A stretch of 64,000 bases of DNA, from assembly GCF_002237555.1 (NCBI RefSeq), contig NZ_CP022540.1:4593001-4657000 (forward strand). The letters are read 5' to 3'. Under the pieces are notes generated by a model. It was not told the DNA's origin. It made no database searches and worked only from the letters and a program-made list of their open reading frames with translations. The DNA comes from Antarctobacter heliothermus. GTDB lineage: Bacteria > Pseudomonadota > Alphaproteobacteria > Rhodobacterales > Rhodobacteraceae. Position 1 is the stretch's first letter. Each line of letters opens with the position of its first letter. The translations under genes were made by a program, and so were the position numbers. This document shows, piece after piece, positions 18,063 to 27,500 of the stretch.

Positions 18063-18800
18063 CTACAGCTTCAGCTTTTTGAACACAGCTTCGGGGATGT
18101 TGCGGATGATCGCCATGACCAGCCACCAGATACGGCGCACGTAGATCACGTTGCGCCCCTTCTGCACGGCCTTCAGCACCGCCGCGCCCACCTCTGACGG
18201 CTCGGCGGTCAGTTTCTCGGGCAGGTCCAGTCCTTCGGTCATGGCGGTGTTCACAAAGCCCGGCAGCACCGTGACCACATGCACGCCCTTTTTCGCCAGC
18301 CGGTTGCGCAACCCCGACAGAAAGGCGATGAACCCCGCCTTGGCGGAGCCGTAGACATAGTTCGTGGCCCGCCCCCGATCCCCGGCGACAGAGCTGACCC
18401 CGACAAGCGTGCCCGATCCGCGCGCCTCAAACCGATTGGCCAGCAGGGCAAGGATACCAGCGGGCCCCTCGTAGTTGGTGCGCATGACGAGGGCGGCCTG
18501 CGCCAGATCCTGCTCGTTCTCTGCCTGCTCCCCCATATAGCCGACAACGCTGACGGCGACCTCGGGCAGGTTGGGCAATCCGCCAAGGAAGCCATCGAAC
18601 CCATCGCGGTCCAGCACGTCGAAGTCATGCAGCGTGACCTCTACCCCGTGACGAAGGGCAAGGTCGGTCCGCGCTGTTTCCAGCCCCGCAGACCCGCGCG
18701 CGGCAAGCTGGATCGGGTGACCCGCAGCGGCAAAGGCATGGGCAATGGCCAGCCCCATGTCCGAACGGGCACCAAGGATGAGGACGGGGAGTGCGGTCAA
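18063..18800 (-). CDS. DprE2-like short-chain reductase
   Basis: 245 residues of the SDR fold. The cofactor loop is LGARSDMGLAIAHAF and the catalytic pair is YVYGSAKAGF (Tyr-x-x-x-Lys), after a serine in VGVSSVAGD. The relaxed glycine motif, basic C-terminus (RNIPEAVFKKLKL) and context match decaprenylphosphoryl-2-keto-ribose reductase (DprE2/NoeP), which completes the C2 epimerisation of polyprenyl-phosphate ribose to arabinose. The start overlaps the DprE1-like stop by four bases. It is the last gene of the four-gene operon. Confidence 0.83.
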   Translation of the reverse strand: MTALPVLILGARSDMGLAIAHAFAAAGHPIQLAARGSAGLETARTDLALRHGVEVTLHDFDVLDRDGFDGFLGGLPNLPEVAVSVVGYMGEQAENEQDLAQAALVMRTNYEGPAGILALLANRFEARGSGTLVGVSSVAGDRGRATNYVYGSAKAGFIAFLSGLRNRLAKKGVHVVTVLPGFVNTAMTEGLDLPEKLTAEPSEVGAAVLKAVQKGRNVIYVRRIWWLVMAIIRNIPEAVFKKLKL

Positions 18801-20122
18801 AGCGATAGCCTTTCGGATTGGGCAGAGGCGAAGTGATCCTTGAGGCCGCGCGCCTCGCGCAGCGCCTCAAATTCATCGGCGCGGCTGTCGGCCTCGCGCA
18901 GGGTATCGGGGCGCATCCGGCTGTCCTTGGCCAGATAGAACCGTCCTCCATGGGTGACGGCGATGGCATCCAGCAGGTCCAGCAGGGGCAGCGTATGCGG
19001 CTTCATCGGGAAATCGAGCGCCAGCGTATACCCCTCCATCGGGAAGGAAAACGCGCTGTCCTGCGGGCCAAAGCGTTTCAGGACGGCCAAAAAAGAGCCT
19101 GCCCCGGCCTCGGCAATCGCCTCCAGCAACTCCGTCAGTCCGGCGCGGGCGGTGTCCAGCGGCAGGACACATTGGAACTGGGCAAAACCCCGGCGGCCAT
19201 AGATGCGGTTCCATTTCAAAACGGCGTCCAGCGGGTAGAAATAGGTATCCCAATCCACCAGCGCCTTGGTCGGTTTCCATGCGCCGACACGGTAGTACAG
19301 CTCGTTGAAGGCGCGCACCGACCAACGGTTCAGCGCGAAACCGGGAAAATCGAACGGGACCGAAAGCGCGCCCTTGTGTCCGGCATCCAGCGGCGTCCGA
19401 GCTTTCTTGGCGTCCAGATCGGCGCGCTTTGCATGGTCCCCCAACATCACCAAAGAGCGGCCAAGATGCGCGCCCCGGCTCATGCAGTCGATCCAGGCCA
19501 CCGAATAGGGCACATGCGCGTGCTGCTCAAAGAGGTCCATCGCGGTCCCTAGGTCCGGCGCGGGCAATGTTGTCTGGTTGATCCAGGCCGTTTCGACCGG
19601 ACGCAGGCGGATGGCGGTGCGGACAATCACCCCGGTCAGCCCCATGCCGCCCAACGTGTGGCGGAACAGATCGGCGTCGTCGTCGCGTGAGATCCGGCGG
19701 ATCTGCCCGTCCGGTCCCATCAGGTCAATCCAGTCGACACAGGTCCCAAAACTGCCGTCGACATGGTGGTTCTTGCCGTGCACATCCGCGGCAATCGCCC
19801 CGCCCAGCGTGACAAATTTTGTGCCCGGCGTGACCATCGGAAACCAGCCGCGCGGCAAGAAGGCGTCGATCACATCCCCCAACAGCACACCGGCCTCAGC
19901 CACCAGCACGCCGGTTTCAGCGTCAAACGACAGCATGTGGTCAAAGTGGCGCATATCCAGCGTGGTATGCGTGCCCACAGCACTGTCACCATAGGACCGC
20001 CCATTGCCGCGCGCGATGACAGGCTCATCGCCGGTCACCATGGCCTGCAACGCCGCGACATCGCGCGGTGCGCGCAGCTGTGTTTCGACAACGGGAAAGC
20101 GGCCCCATCCGGTCAGTTTCAT
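18797..20122 (-). CDS. DprE1-like FAD-dependent oxidase
   Basis: 441 residues. The FAD domain has ARGNGRSYGDSAVG (about 38-50) and TLGGAIAADVHGKNHHVDGSFG (about 105-126), matching DprE1, which oxidises decaprenylphosphoryl ribose at C2. The C-terminal block SFPMEGYTLALDFPMK aligns with the DprE1 segment holding the cysteine targeted by benzothiazinones (Cys387 in M. tuberculosis); here the residue is Ala368. The catalytic lysine of AKDSR is kept (K399). ATG at 20122 overlaps the GtrA stop by four bases. L-gulonolactone-oxidase-like enzymes share the fold, but the operon favours DprE1. Confidence 0.85.
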   Translation of the reverse strand: MKLTGWGRFPVVETQLRAPRDVAALQAMVTGDEPVIARGNGRSYGDSAVGTHTTLDMRHFDHMLSFDAETGVLVAEAGVLLGDVIDAFLPRGWFPMVTPGTKFVTLGGAIAADVHGKNHHVDGSFGTCVDWIDLMGPDGQIRRISRDDDADLFRHTLGGMGLTGVIVRTAIRLRPVETAWINQTTLPAPDLGTAMDLFEQHAHVPYSVAWIDCMSRGAHLGRSLVMLGDHAKRADLDAKKARTPLDAGHKGALSVPFDFPGFALNRWSVRAFNELYYRVGAWKPTKALVDWDTYFYPLDAVLKWNRIYGRRGFAQFQCVLPLDTARAGLTELLEAIAEAGAGSFLAVLKRFGPQDSAFSFPMEGYTLALDFPMKPHTLPLLDLLDAIAVTHGGRFYLAKDSRMRPDTLREADSRADEFEALREARGLKDHFASAQSERLSL

Positions 20123-20541
20123 GGCGTGGCTCCTAGACGCGCGTTCGTAAAGACAAACCGCCGGTCCAGATTGTACTTGATGACGTAACCGACCATGAGG
20201 CCAATCACCGCGCCCGTCTCTCGCATGGCATCGGTGTGCCAGATCAGCCAAAAGGCGGTCTCGGTTCCCCAGAAGATCGCCGTCGTGACGATGCCCATGA
20301 CGGTGTACAGCGTGAACTTGCGCCCATGCGCACGCAACCCGGTGGCGTCATCGAAAAAGATCCACCGCTTGTCGAGGACGTATTTCACCACCAAACCGGC
20401 CAATGTGCCAGTACCTACGGCCAGCGCGAAAACGATGCCACTGTCACCGCCCAACAGAACGAGGCGTTGCACGCCCAGATTTGCCAAGGTCGCCAGAACG
20501 GCAAACCCGGCGTAGCGCAGGATCAGGGCCTGTCGTGACAT
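20119..20541 (-). CDS. GtrA-family membrane protein
   Basis: A 140-residue protein with four transmembrane helices, starting FAVLATLANLGVQRLVLL and ending YVIKYNLDRRFVF. The two KYxLDRRxxF-type motifs after helices 2 and 4 (VVKYVLDKRWIFF and VIKYNLDRRFVF) are the family signature. GtrA proteins are thought to help polyprenyl-phosphate sugars cross the membrane or to recruit partner enzymes; in M. tuberculosis the homologue Rv3789 lies beside dprE1. The start at 20541 is one base after the UbiA stop. Confidence 0.9.
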   Translation of the reverse strand: MSRQALILRYAGFAVLATLANLGVQRLVLLGGDSGIVFALAVGTGTLAGLVVKYVLDKRWIFFDDATGLRAHGRKFTLYTVMGIVTTAIFWGTETAFWLIWHTDAMRETGAVIGLMVGYVIKYNLDRRFVFTNARLGATP

Positions 20542-20542
20542 G

Positions 20543-22033
20543 TTACATTGTCCCCGCCATGGCGAACCCCAGGCTAAGCACCATGCAAATCTGACTGGTC
20601 CGGTCACGGGCCGCATAGACAAGCGGGTCGTCGTGCATGTGGCCCCGGTGCGCCGTCATGACGGTCCGGGTGATCCAGTACAACAGCACCGGACCGATGC
20701 CCCACAGCATGATCGGCGCCTTGTACAGCACGATGACATCCGGCGAGTCGAGATAAAGCACCAGCACCAGGATCGAGACATATCCGGCGGCAATGGCAAT
20801 CATGGTGATGATCGGCAGATCGCCCACGTTGTAGCCGCGACCGCGCGCACGCAGCGTGCCTCGGCGGGCGCTGTCGACCAGTTCGGCCTGTCGTTTGACC
20901 GCCGCCAGCGACAGGAAGAAAAAGATGGCAAAGGCCAGCATCCAGACCGACAGCGGGATGCCGGTCGCCACGGCGCCTGCGACGATGCGCATGGTATACA
21001 GCCCCGCCAAAACGCAGATGTCGATCACCATCTTGCGTTTCAGGTGCAGTGAATAGGCTGTTGTCAGGACAAAGTAGCCGCAGACCACGGCAAAAAACGA
21101 CAAGCCCACAGATAGTGATACTATGGCCCCCAACAGAAACAGCGCCGCCGCCATGATCATCCCGTGTGACAGCGGTACCGCACCAGAAGCAAAGGGGCGC
21201 TTTCGTTTGCGCGGGTGGGCCCGATCCGCGTTCAGGTCGGTCATGTCGTTGACCACATAGACGCTGGAGGCAATCAGGCTGTAGGCGATAAAGGCCGCAA
21301 CCGCGAACGCCAGCGTCGCCGCATTGAACTGATGCCCCGCCAACATAGGCAGAAAGACAAGGATGTTCTTGAGCCACTGATGCGGGCGCAACGCCTTGAC
21401 GTAAGGCCGTATACTCTGCGGCACGGTGGTCAGATGTTCGACCTCTGTCGAGACGGCCTCTGCCGCGACGCGCAGGCGGGCGGAGGCGTTGACGGTGACG
21501 GCCTTTGCGGCCTGCTGCCAGACCGGCAGGTCTGCGGCGCTGTCGCCCATGTAGACATACCCGCCCGCCCCGAAACGCCCGGTCAGAAAGTCGGCCTTGG
21601 TCTGCCCCTTAAGGTTACGGTTGCCGTCAGAGCCATGGACCTCGTCAAACACCTTGAGGTGATCGGCAATCACTTCTGCCAGCGATTGGTCCGAGGCGGT
21701 GACAAGGGCTGTGCGGCCACCTTTGGCGCGCCACGCCTCTATATAGCCCAACACCTGCTGGTCAAACGGCAGGGTCGCGGGTTCCAGACGCGCGGTTTCG
21801 GCGAGCCGCTGCTTGAGCGCCGCCCGCCCATGACCCAGCGTCCGGACAGCCGTCAACGCCACGGTCCAGTCTCGTCCAAACGCGGTCCAAAAACTTTCGT
21901 ACAGCATGTCGCTGCGCAACAGAGTGCCGTCAAGATCGACAACAAGGATCGGCAAGTCTTGGGCATGATACGGGACGTCCCCTGCCCGGTCGGACTCTTC
22001 GTCCGGACCGCCTGCTGTCTCTTGCGTTAACAT
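20543..22033 (-). CDS. HAD phosphatase-UbiA prenyltransferase fusion (polyprenyl-phosphate phosphoribosyltransferase-like)
   Basis: 496 residues. Residues 28-200 form a HAD hydrolase: motif I VVDLDGTLL (D33, D35), TASDQSL, and motif IV GDSAADLPVW. Residues 205-496 are a UbiA membrane domain of about eight helices with NDMTDLNADRAHPRKRKRPF, matching the NDxxDxxxD motif of 5-phosphoribosyl-1-pyrophosphate transferases such as Rv3806c. The UbiA half would make polyprenyl-phosphoryl-5-phosphoribose and the HAD half would remove the 5-phosphate. These are separate genes in mycobacteria and in Azorhizobium (noeC, noeH). It is the first gene of the operon. Confidence 0.88.
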   Translation of the reverse strand: MLTQETAGGPDEESDRAGDVPYHAQDLPILVVDLDGTLLRSDMLYESFWTAFGRDWTVALTAVRTLGHGRAALKQRLAETARLEPATLPFDQQVLGYIEAWRAKGGRTALVTASDQSLAEVIADHLKVFDEVHGSDGNRNLKGQTKADFLTGRFGAGGYVYMGDSAADLPVWQQAAKAVTVNASARLRVAAEAVSTEVEHLTTVPQSIRPYVKALRPHQWLKNILVFLPMLAGHQFNAATLAFAVAAFIAYSLIASSVYVVNDMTDLNADRAHPRKRKRPFASGAVPLSHGMIMAAALFLLGAIVSLSVGLSFFAVVCGYFVLTTAYSLHLKRKMVIDICVLAGLYTMRIVAGAVATGIPLSVWMLAFAIFFFLSLAAVKRQAELVDSARRGTLRARGRGYNVGDLPIITMIAIAAGYVSILVLVLYLDSPDVIVLYKAPIMLWGIGPVLLYWITRTVMTAHRGHMHDDPLVYAARDRTSQICMVLSLGFAMAGTM

Positions 22034-26124: not shown

Positions 26125-27500
26125 GAGATATGCGCAGAAGTTGGTGACGCGTGATCAGGCGGCGTTTTGAAGTTGGCGGACGCCGTCGCGGAACTCAACC
26201 CCGCTGATGACCTCCGGGAGGCGATTCCGCCCGTCGAGTTTTCGCCATTTCGTCTGAGCAGACATCATCAGCCGGAAAGCCATGGCGAGCCCAGTCTTGC
26301 GGCTGAGGCAGCCCTTGGTGCGTTTCGTCCTGTGTCTGACGGTGGCGAACGTGCTCTCGATCGGATTTGACGTCCGGATGTGTTTCCAGTGTTCGGCCGG
26401 GTAGTCGTAGAAGGTCAGTAGTGCATCCCGATCCTTGACCAACTTGGCGACTGCCTTGTCCCATTTCACGCCGTAGGCATCGACGAAGAAGTCGAAGGCG
26501 GCCGACGCCGCGGCTCGGGTTTCGGCCTGCCAGATGTCGTGCAGGTGCGCCTTGGCCTTGGCTTGCACCGATTTCGGCAGCGCGTTGAGCACGTTCATGG
26601 TTTTGTGGAGCCAGCACCGCTGCTCCTGTGTCGAGGGGAAGACCTCGCGCAGTGCCGCCCAGAACCCCAGGGCGCCGTCGCCTATGGCGAGCTTGGGATC
26701 CTGCTTCAGTCCGCGGCGTTTGAGATCGAGCAGAACCTCGCGCCAACTCTGAGTGCTTTCGCGGAAGCCGTCGGTCATGGCCAGCAGCTCCTTGCGGCCG
26801 TATTCATCCGCACCCACGATCACCAAAACGCATTGTTTTTCCTCGGCCCTTCGCGGCTTGAAATAGACGCCGTCGGCCCAGATGTAGAGAAACCGCCGGG
26901 TGCCGAGGTCACGCTTTTCCCAGGCCTCGTACTCGGACCACCAGTCCGCTTTCAGCCGCGTGATCGTAGTGGCCGAGAGGCCCTTGGCGTGTGGCCCCAG
27001 CAGGGCGGCAAGCGCCTCACTGAAATCGCCGGTGGACACGCCCTTCAGGTAAAGCCAGGGCAGCAGCTCTTCGACCGACTTTGCCTTGCGCAGATACCGC
27101 GGCAGGATGCTGGGCGTGAACGCGATCTTGTCCGTGCCCGGCTTGCGGTCCCGCACACGCGGCACCGTCACGGCAACAGGCCCGACACCGGTCAAAATCT
27201 CACGCTCGGGCAGGTGCCCATGACGAACCAGTCTTGCGCGACCATCCTCAAGCTTGTGATCGGCAAAGGCGCCAAGCAGCGTGGACAGTTCCGCCTCAAT
27301 CGCCTGCTCGATCAGCTTGCGCGCGCCGTCCCGGATGAGGTCGGTCAGCGGGTCCGGCGAAATCCCGGATGGATCAGATAGCTGGGTGATGGTATTCTCT
27401 TGCATGTGGCATATCCCTTTCTCGGTTGAGAATTGACGGCGCTTCGACACCGCCATGATATGTCGCCCCTCAGGGCATCACCAACTTTCGCGCATATCTC
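26125..27500 (-). mobile_element. Complete IS256-family insertion sequence (1376 bp)
   Basis: The left end GAGATATGCGCAGAAGTTGG and the inverted right end GAGATATGCGCGAAAGTTGG match over 23 of 26 bases when extended. The element is flanked by an 8-bp direct repeat ACTCGCGC at 26117-26124 and 27501-27508, the duplication size expected for IS256. One transposase gene fills it. The preserved ends and intact transposase suggest a recent and possibly still active insertion. Confidence 0.95.
26155..27405 (-). CDS. IS256-family (mutator-type) transposase
   Basis: 416 residues. The DDE residues can be placed: Asp in YIWADGVYFKPR, Asp in AIGDGALGFWAALREVFP followed by the conserved CWLHKTMNVL helix, and Glu in NPIESTFATVRHRTKRTKG. 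ATG at 27405 is preferred over the longer frame because MQENTITQL is the usual start for these proteins and the upstream part runs into the terminal region. It appears full length with no frameshift. Confidence 0.93.
   Translation of the reverse strand: MQENTITQLSDPSGISPDPLTDLIRDGARKLIEQAIEAELSTLLGAFADHKLEDGRARLVRHGHLPEREILTGVGPVAVTVPRVRDRKPGTDKIAFTPSILPRYLRKAKSVEELLPWLYLKGVSTGDFSEALAALLGPHAKGLSATTITRLKADWWSEYEAWEKRDLGTRRFLYIWADGVYFKPRRAEEKQCVLVIVGADEYGRKELLAMTDGFRESTQSWREVLLDLKRRGLKQDPKLAIGDGALGFWAALREVFPSTQEQRCWLHKTMNVLNALPKSVQAKAKAHLHDIWQAETRAAASAAFDFFVDAYGVKWDKAVAKLVKDRDALLTFYDYPAEHWKHIRTSNPIESTFATVRHRTKRTKGCLSRKTGLAMAFRLMMSAQTKWRKLDGRNRLPEVISGVEFRDGVRQLQNAA

Follow-up and report, generated by a model that had tools for sequence, protein, structure and literature searches.

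A compact operon predicted to make a polyprenyl-phosphate D-arabinofuranose donor in Antarctobacter heliothermus, and an AftB-like candidate transferase encoded outside it

D-Arabinofuranose (D-Araf) transfer is best studied in mycobacteria, whose DprE1 and arabinosyltransferases serve as drug targets. The mycobacterial decaprenyl-phosphoryl-arabinose pathway uses decaprenyl as lipid carrier and comprises Rv3806c, Rv3807c, DprE1, DprE2, the GtrA protein Rv3789 and AftB, with a gene order that we take to be Rv3789-3791. Rv3789 is described as serving the pathway and as co-expressed with AftA, DprE1 and DprE2 (PMC9810820). Among Gram-negative bacteria, D-Araf donor genes also serve a glycosyltransferase of the GT-C type in the TfpW system of Pseudomonas paraeruginosa (PMC12369383), where the target is the type IVa pilin and the phosphatase is a separate protein (PMC11127046). 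In Azorhizobium, noeC, noeH and noeO of the noeCHOP genes, which lie in an inducible nod operon, have been proposed to make the D-arabinose precursor of the Nod factor (PMC2443382); these last two systems are compared here by description. In Citrobacter youngae, a pentofuranose system (ORF15/ORF14/ORF12, GT136) likewise supplies a periplasmic GT-C with a pentofuranose bound to lipid (PMC11127046). Here we analyse a four-gene operon in a 64,000-nt stretch of the Antarctobacter heliothermus genome (5.33 Mb, four contigs), G000:C1:4593001-4657000, hereafter the window, which an initial annotation had read as a pathway from polyprenyl phosphate and phosphoribosyl pyrophosphate (PRPP) to polyprenyl-phosphate arabinose.

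The four genes are intact, lie on the minus strand at window positions 18063-22033 and form one tight operon, given here in the order of transcription:

20543-22033, minus strand: HAD-UbiA fusion, 496 aa; predicted to convert PRPP and polyprenyl phosphate to polyprenyl-P-ribofuranose
20119-20541, minus strand: GtrA family membrane protein, 140 aa; predicted to flip the lipid-linked sugar
18797-20122, minus strand: DprE1-like FAD (flavin adenine dinucleotide) oxidase, 441 aa; predicted to oxidise polyprenyl-P-ribose at C2
18063-18800, minus strand: DprE2-like short-chain dehydrogenase/reductase (SDR), 245 aa, TTG start; predicted to reduce the C2 keto group, with polyprenyl-P-arabinofuranose as product

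The identity of the four genes was confirmed, with NCBIfam E-values from 4.3e-51 to 7e-187. They had been described as overlapping, which is the case for the GtrA/DprE1 and DprE1/DprE2 junctions (4 nt each) but not for the HAD-UbiA stop and the GtrA start, which are separated by a 1-nt gap. With a probability of roughly 0.74, we propose that the operon is a complete cytoplasmic polyprenyl-phosphate D-arabinofuranose donor module plus flippase, and that an AftB-like GT-C encoded elsewhere in the genome acts as the periplasmic transferase. That is, UbiA would transfer ribose 5-phosphate from PRPP to polyprenyl phosphate, the fused HAD domain would remove the 5-phosphate, DprE1 and DprE2 would invert C2 from the ribo to the arabino configuration, GtrA would move the lipid-linked sugar across the inner membrane, and the GT-C would pass arabinose to a surface or secreted glycan. 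Profiles and residues support the donor pathway as initially annotated; as to the sugar, arabinose would be the expected product because candidate Araf systems are described as having DprE1/E2 homologs, and xylose systems another epimerase (PMC11127046).

Set against the Citrobacter system, in both loci the UbiA phosphoribosyltransferase carries a HAD phosphatase at its N terminus, and the same seven residues are present (PMC11127046). They differ in the flippase, GtrA here and MATE in Citrobacter, and in the epimerase, which is DprE1/DprE2 here and in Citrobacter either none (O1) or GalE-like (O2); the AftB-like GT-C, unlinked to the operon in A. heliothermus, can be set beside Citrobacter ORF12 by description. 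With mycobacteria the locus shares the phosphoribosyltransferase, DprE1 and DprE2 families, but the phosphatase is a HAD domain instead of the unrelated Rv3807c.

The first protein matches UbiA (1.1e-22) and HAD (1.7e-10) in Pfam and PRK08238 (NF006088; 7e-187) in NCBIfam. Its UbiA domain scores far better with the NCBIfam model for decaprenyl-phosphate phosphoribosyltransferase (1.3e-52) than with those for heme o synthase (7.9e-13) or 4-hydroxybenzoate octaprenyltransferase (5.9e-07), and its best PDB match is a mycobacterial phosphoribosyltransferase (8j8j, 3e-33). In a tree of 16 sequences, which has long branches, the window UbiA and its relatives form a group separate (support 98/99) from both further UbiA-family members that the genome encodes. 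By sequence, the domain is placed with the polyprenyl-phosphate phosphoribosyltransferases and not with quinone or heme enzymes, the grouping that the initial annotation had named as fatal to its reading. The UbiA motifs N-D-x2-D-x3-D and R-x2-E are present together with the phosphoribosyltransferase similarity. Residue conservation was counted over 35 loci including the window, leaving aside proteins that were uncalled or outside the length limit (five for UbiA, three for DprE1 and two for DprE2). Residues D33, N262, D263, D266, D270, R381 and E384 of HAD-UbiA are kept in all 30 aligned sequences, window included, and correspond at a constant offset of +15 to D18, N247, D248, D251, D255, R366 and E369 of Citrobacter ORF15; the HAD aspartates D33 and D35 are likewise found in 30 of 30. 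As described by Kelly et al. (2024), ORF15 forms farnesyl-P-ribose in vitro with PRPP as substrate, and a variant altered at the HAD aspartate leaves the product mostly in the 5-phosphate form (PMC11127046). The R366A and E369A variants of ORF15 are still active (PMC11127046), so that the conservation of R381 and E384 is weaker evidence. We predict from these comparisons that HAD-UbiA makes polyprenyl-P-ribose from PRPP.

The oxidase matches the NCBIfam DprE1 model NF053785 at 2.5e-125, and its PDB match to DprE1 (7e-78) covers residues 2-440, i.e. the whole length of the protein. Other NCBIfam families follow at a distance, namely an FAD-linked oxidoreductase subfamily (5.7e-12) and sugar 1,4-lactone oxidase (9.6e-09). 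By profile the protein is thus closest to DprE1 and not to the gulonolactone or alditol oxidases, the other placement against which the earlier reading had been staked. Residues equivalent to H132 and K418 of Mycobacterium tuberculosis DprE1, which we treat as catalytic, occur in each of the 32 aligned sequences, that of the window among them. In all 32, here and in the relatives, Ala or Thr occupies the position of M. tuberculosis C387, presumably the residue that covalent inhibitors attack. The reductase matches PRK07102 above its cut-off (7.3e-101) and the NCBIfam DprE2 model at 4.3e-56, has DprE2 (21gq_C, 3.9e-30) as its best PDB match, and shares the SDR catalytic Ser-Tyr-Lys residues with every other sequence in an alignment of 33. 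The GtrA protein (GtrA_DPMS_TM) was placed by profile only, above both cut-offs (Pfam PF04138, 9.3e-10; NCBIfam gtrA_1, 4.3e-51), and may flip the lipid-linked sugar.

UbiA and FAD_binding_4 are broad families, and the genes could in principle belong to quinone, heme or sugar-lactone metabolism, unrelated to arabinose. This is very improbable: the specific profiles, the PDB matches and the residues indicate a phosphoribosyltransferase and a DprE1, and the two further UbiA-family proteins of the genome separate from the window UbiA in the tree. Quinone, heme and lactone functions were rejected on the basis of the profiles, the residues and the UbiA tree.

The initial annotation saw no arabinosyltransferase in the window, and this stands as far as tested: the whole genome has no match to a PMT_2-type transferase, and the one match in it to a GT-C encoded near a relative's operon, discussed below, lies outside the window. 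Close to the window-type operons of two relatives (L044 and L045) there is a gene for a GT-C-like membrane protein. A search of the A. heliothermus genome with this type returned a single match, which partly answers the earlier suggestion to look for a furanosyltransferase elsewhere in the genome:

G000:C1:4493889-4495628: P0005, candidate GT-C, 579 aa; about 115 kb from the operon

P0005 has no Pfam family above cut-off, and an ortholog at 88% identity is present in the same genus (Antarctobacter; G383, L118). A profile of 20 sequences, consisting of P0005 and 19 of the other 69 relatives listed among 8000 scored candidates (profile A2), gave AftB (9dlf, 6.3e-5) as its only PDB match at E up to 1. 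In the alignment with AftB, its D62, the catalytic Asp of the DD motif, and its R221 correspond to D104 and R241 of the GT-C, which are invariant in the 20 profile sequences. Mutation of AftB D62 or R221 abolishes activity, and Arg372 is likewise essential, as reported in PMC12041299. Some relatives at about 26% identity match the NCBIfam AftB model far under its cut-off (Mycolicibacterium, L134, 1.7e-14; L132, 3.2e-11). The likely role of P0005, judged from its sequence, is that of the arabinosyltransferase, for which it is a strong candidate.

Profile A2 was then compared with the occurrence of DprE1 in 394 genomes of the Rhodobacteraceae, scoring the best three candidates per genome. Matches were found in at least 17 genomes, all 17 among the 141 that have DprE1 and none among the 253 that lack it (hypergeometric p 1.3e-8, shared ancestry ignored). 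After removal of the own, same-genus and seed genomes and of two close orthologs, the count is 12 of 12 with DprE1 (p 2.4e-6, again ignoring shared ancestry). P0005 alone, searched in a draw of 149 genomes, gave six matches, all with DprE1. Among 27 named genomes with a GT-C relative, DprE1 was present in 18; for relatives at 37% identity or more the count is 10 of 10 genomes, three of which are also in the 394, and this set includes metagenome-assembled genomes (MAGs) labelled Hydrogenedentes, Myxococcales and Planctomycetota.

Direct linkage was also observed. In Heliomarina baculiformis (L098) the GT-C ortholog lies 0.26 kb from HAD-UbiA in divergent orientation, in an uncultured Roseobacter (L122) it is 5 kb from the operon, and in a proteobacterial MAG (L132) genes for DprE1, DprE2, a UbiA protein without HAD domain, GtrA (Pfam 1.2e-22) and the GT-C are consecutive. 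With GT-C-like defined as at least 430 aa, at least seven transmembrane segments by a simple hydropathy count and an acidic motif near the N terminus, and with fetched flanks of unequal length, 10 of 29 operon loci have at least one such protein in their flanks (L036, L042, L044, L045, L098, L107, L115, L117, L122 and L132, of which L115 is the weakest case). Eight of the 29 loci had been chosen since their genome had a known GT-C match; among the remaining 21, six have a GT-C-like protein.

A number of observations pull the other way. For the donor genes, the lysine assigned to the HAD motif is kept in just 21 of 30 aligned sequences, and may be misassigned; the oxidase scores 419 bits against an NCBIfam equivalog cut-off of 500 and the reductase 190 bits against the DprE2 cut-off of 250, which is why we label them DprE1-like and DprE2-like; and one relative operon (L109) has no GtrA match. 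For the transferase, the AftB similarity is weak, at 25 bits over part of the protein. AftB R372 falls one residue off R378, which is invariant, and the stretch around it lacks significance when taken by itself. P0005 by itself has no significant PDB match and no match to the NCBIfam AftB model, so that what we claim is an AftB-like mode of action, and we do not call the protein AftB. In its own genome it does not stand beside the operon, and its neighbours, judged by eye, do not resemble glycan genes except for a Gfo/Idh-like gene. Weaker GT-C relatives (24-33% identity) come with DprE1 in 8 of 17 genomes and without it in 9 of 17, the base rate being known for the family only. Furthermore, 124 of the 141 DprE1 genomes have no A2 match among their best three candidates, which means that the AftB-like GT-C cannot be the only partner. 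These absences are soft, however, because the same scoring missed two genomes (G107 and G125, both with DprE1) that P0005 alone did match.

It is accordingly conceivable, if rather unlikely, that the operon makes an arabinose donor for some other, unrecognised transferase of this genome, and that the AftB-like GT-C uses another lipid-linked sugar. The position of P0005 some 115 kb away among seemingly unrelated genes would fit this, as would the A2 matches in just 17 of the 141 DprE1 genomes when three candidates are scored in each, and the presence of other GT-C-like proteins near the operons of relatives (L042, L107 and L117 with an EDGYLM motif). One of these, a second GT-C-like protein of 518 aa (L098:13141-14697), is inserted in the Heliomarina operon itself, between GtrA and DprE1. 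Neither this protein nor one further GT-C type from the relatives had a match in the A. heliothermus genome, in searches run without a positive control. Against the different enzyme, searches of the own genome with three such GT-Cs returned the AftB-like protein only and PMT_2 returned nothing, within the limited reach of sequence searches, and both the 17 of 17 co-occurrence and the direct linkage in relatives favour the AftB-like GT-C.

We retain P0005 as the preferred partner of the operon, and turn to how the donor genes are distributed. DprE1 matches were found in 52 of the 149 family genomes, and in the larger draw in the 141 of 394 noted above. Two lineages can be distinguished. The window-type lineage comprises, in the 149-genome draw, A. 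heliothermus and 12 genomes at 53-65% DprE1 identity, in which HAD-UbiA, GtrA, DprE1 and DprE2 are consecutive. The comparison of operon order across Rhodobacteraceae proposed in the initial annotation thus shows the same order recurring in relatives; all four genes were present in the 12 first loci apart from L039, in which GtrA was not called and the other three genes are found. Among the window-type loci added later, that of Heliomarina has a gene inserted before DprE1. The second lineage comprises 39 genomes at 40-47% identity, one of them a partial match. In its 22 mapped loci an LPG_synthase_TM membrane protein (family f4, in 21 of 22), DprE1 and DprE2 are found together with UbiA in opposite orientation.

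The second lineage bears on the possible acceptor. In 30 of its 39 genomes, a CpaC-like gene for the pilus secretin (Pfam Secretin and T2SS-T3SS_pil_N) lies within 16 kb of DprE1; of the other nine, two have no secretin match, six have the secretin on another contig and one has it at a distance on the same contig. Pfam confirms the secretin together with an RcpC/CpaB neighbour, and a lytic transglycosylase at the opposite end. In 17 of the 22 mapped loci there are small genes of 59-89 aa, called pilin-like from their size and place, which stand zero to two genes from UbiA in the 16 loci with UbiA called. Since P. paraeruginosa is known to arabinosylate its type IV pilins (PMC12369383), the acceptor could be a Tad/Flp pilin, the pathway acting on pili in a comparable way. 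A. heliothermus itself has a CpaC-like secretin gene at G000:C1:4584045-4585475, about 7.5 kb before the window start and 25.6 kb from the operon, which probably marks a Tad pilus locus just outside the window. For A. heliothermus, however, we consider a pilin acceptor improbable. None of the 13 window-type genomes of the 149-genome draw has a secretin within 16 kb of DprE1, although for eight of them the secretin sits on a different contig of a draft assembly and for two it was not found. Moreover, secretins are near-universal (129 of 149 genomes), which makes their mere co-occurrence uninformative, and the one relative pilin-like protein scanned does not match the Flp pilin family PF04964. 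The same family gave nothing in the A. heliothermus genome, a result that is uninformative, as the scanned pilin-like protein misses the model too.

Our best guess for the acceptor in Antarctobacter is an exopolysaccharide or a secreted glycoprotein, and the kit as a whole probably decorates a surface or secreted glycan. As leads only, Pfam identifies exopolysaccharide-type neighbours at three window-type operons, namely a bacterial sugar transferase, a glycosyltransferase family 2 protein and a glycoside hydrolase family 16 protein at L037, a Wzx-like flippase at L044 and a sulfotransferase at L045, the homologs of each in the other two loci being assigned by clustering. Large G8-domain proteins are encoded close to the GT-C or to the operon in L042, L104, L120, L121 and L122. 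In addition, a review describes a uronic-acid-rich glycoprotein of high molecular weight that is secreted by Antarctobacter sp. TG22 (PMC2857360).

A wider and more tentative idea, which we hold to be possible but somewhat less probable than its opposite, is that the Roseobacter group carries out arabinofuranosylation with an AftB-type, possibly retaining, GT-C, one donor lineage serving exopolysaccharides or G8-domain secreted proteins and the other serving Tad/Flp pili. For the AftB class, the only structure reported in PMC12041299 is mycobacterial. The system had been called a notable one for surface glycans. The pathway reading behind this holds up, but it is less surprising than was suggested: a 2024 paper described HAD-UbiA chemistry and three-component pentofuranose systems (PMC11127046), and DprE1 relatives are common in the family. 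The donor chemistry is already known; as far as our searches show, what is new is the compact GtrA-containing operon, the AftB-like candidate partner and the pilus-linked sister lineage. These searches covered titles and abstracts of the open-licence PubMed Central papers among the matches listed, the supplement of PMC11127046 that lists candidate Araf systems falling outside that scope. If the proposed reading is true, a marine Gram-negative bacterium would offer a simple system for GtrA flipping and retaining GT-C chemistry, D-arabinose would be predicted in surface or secreted polymers of marine bacteria, and pili would be a possible acceptor in the sister lineage.

Two further observations concern the surroundings of the operon. 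Six window-type operons (L035, L038-L041 and L043) are flanked by a protein family of 559-582 aa (f17), with no Pfam match in the one member scanned; at five of the six an FGE-sulfatase-like family (f18) is also present, and at five a further family (f19), and no function emerged for these three families. Within the window, a Mutator-family transposase gene lies at 26155-27456 on the minus strand (Pfam Transposase_mut, 1.2e-60).

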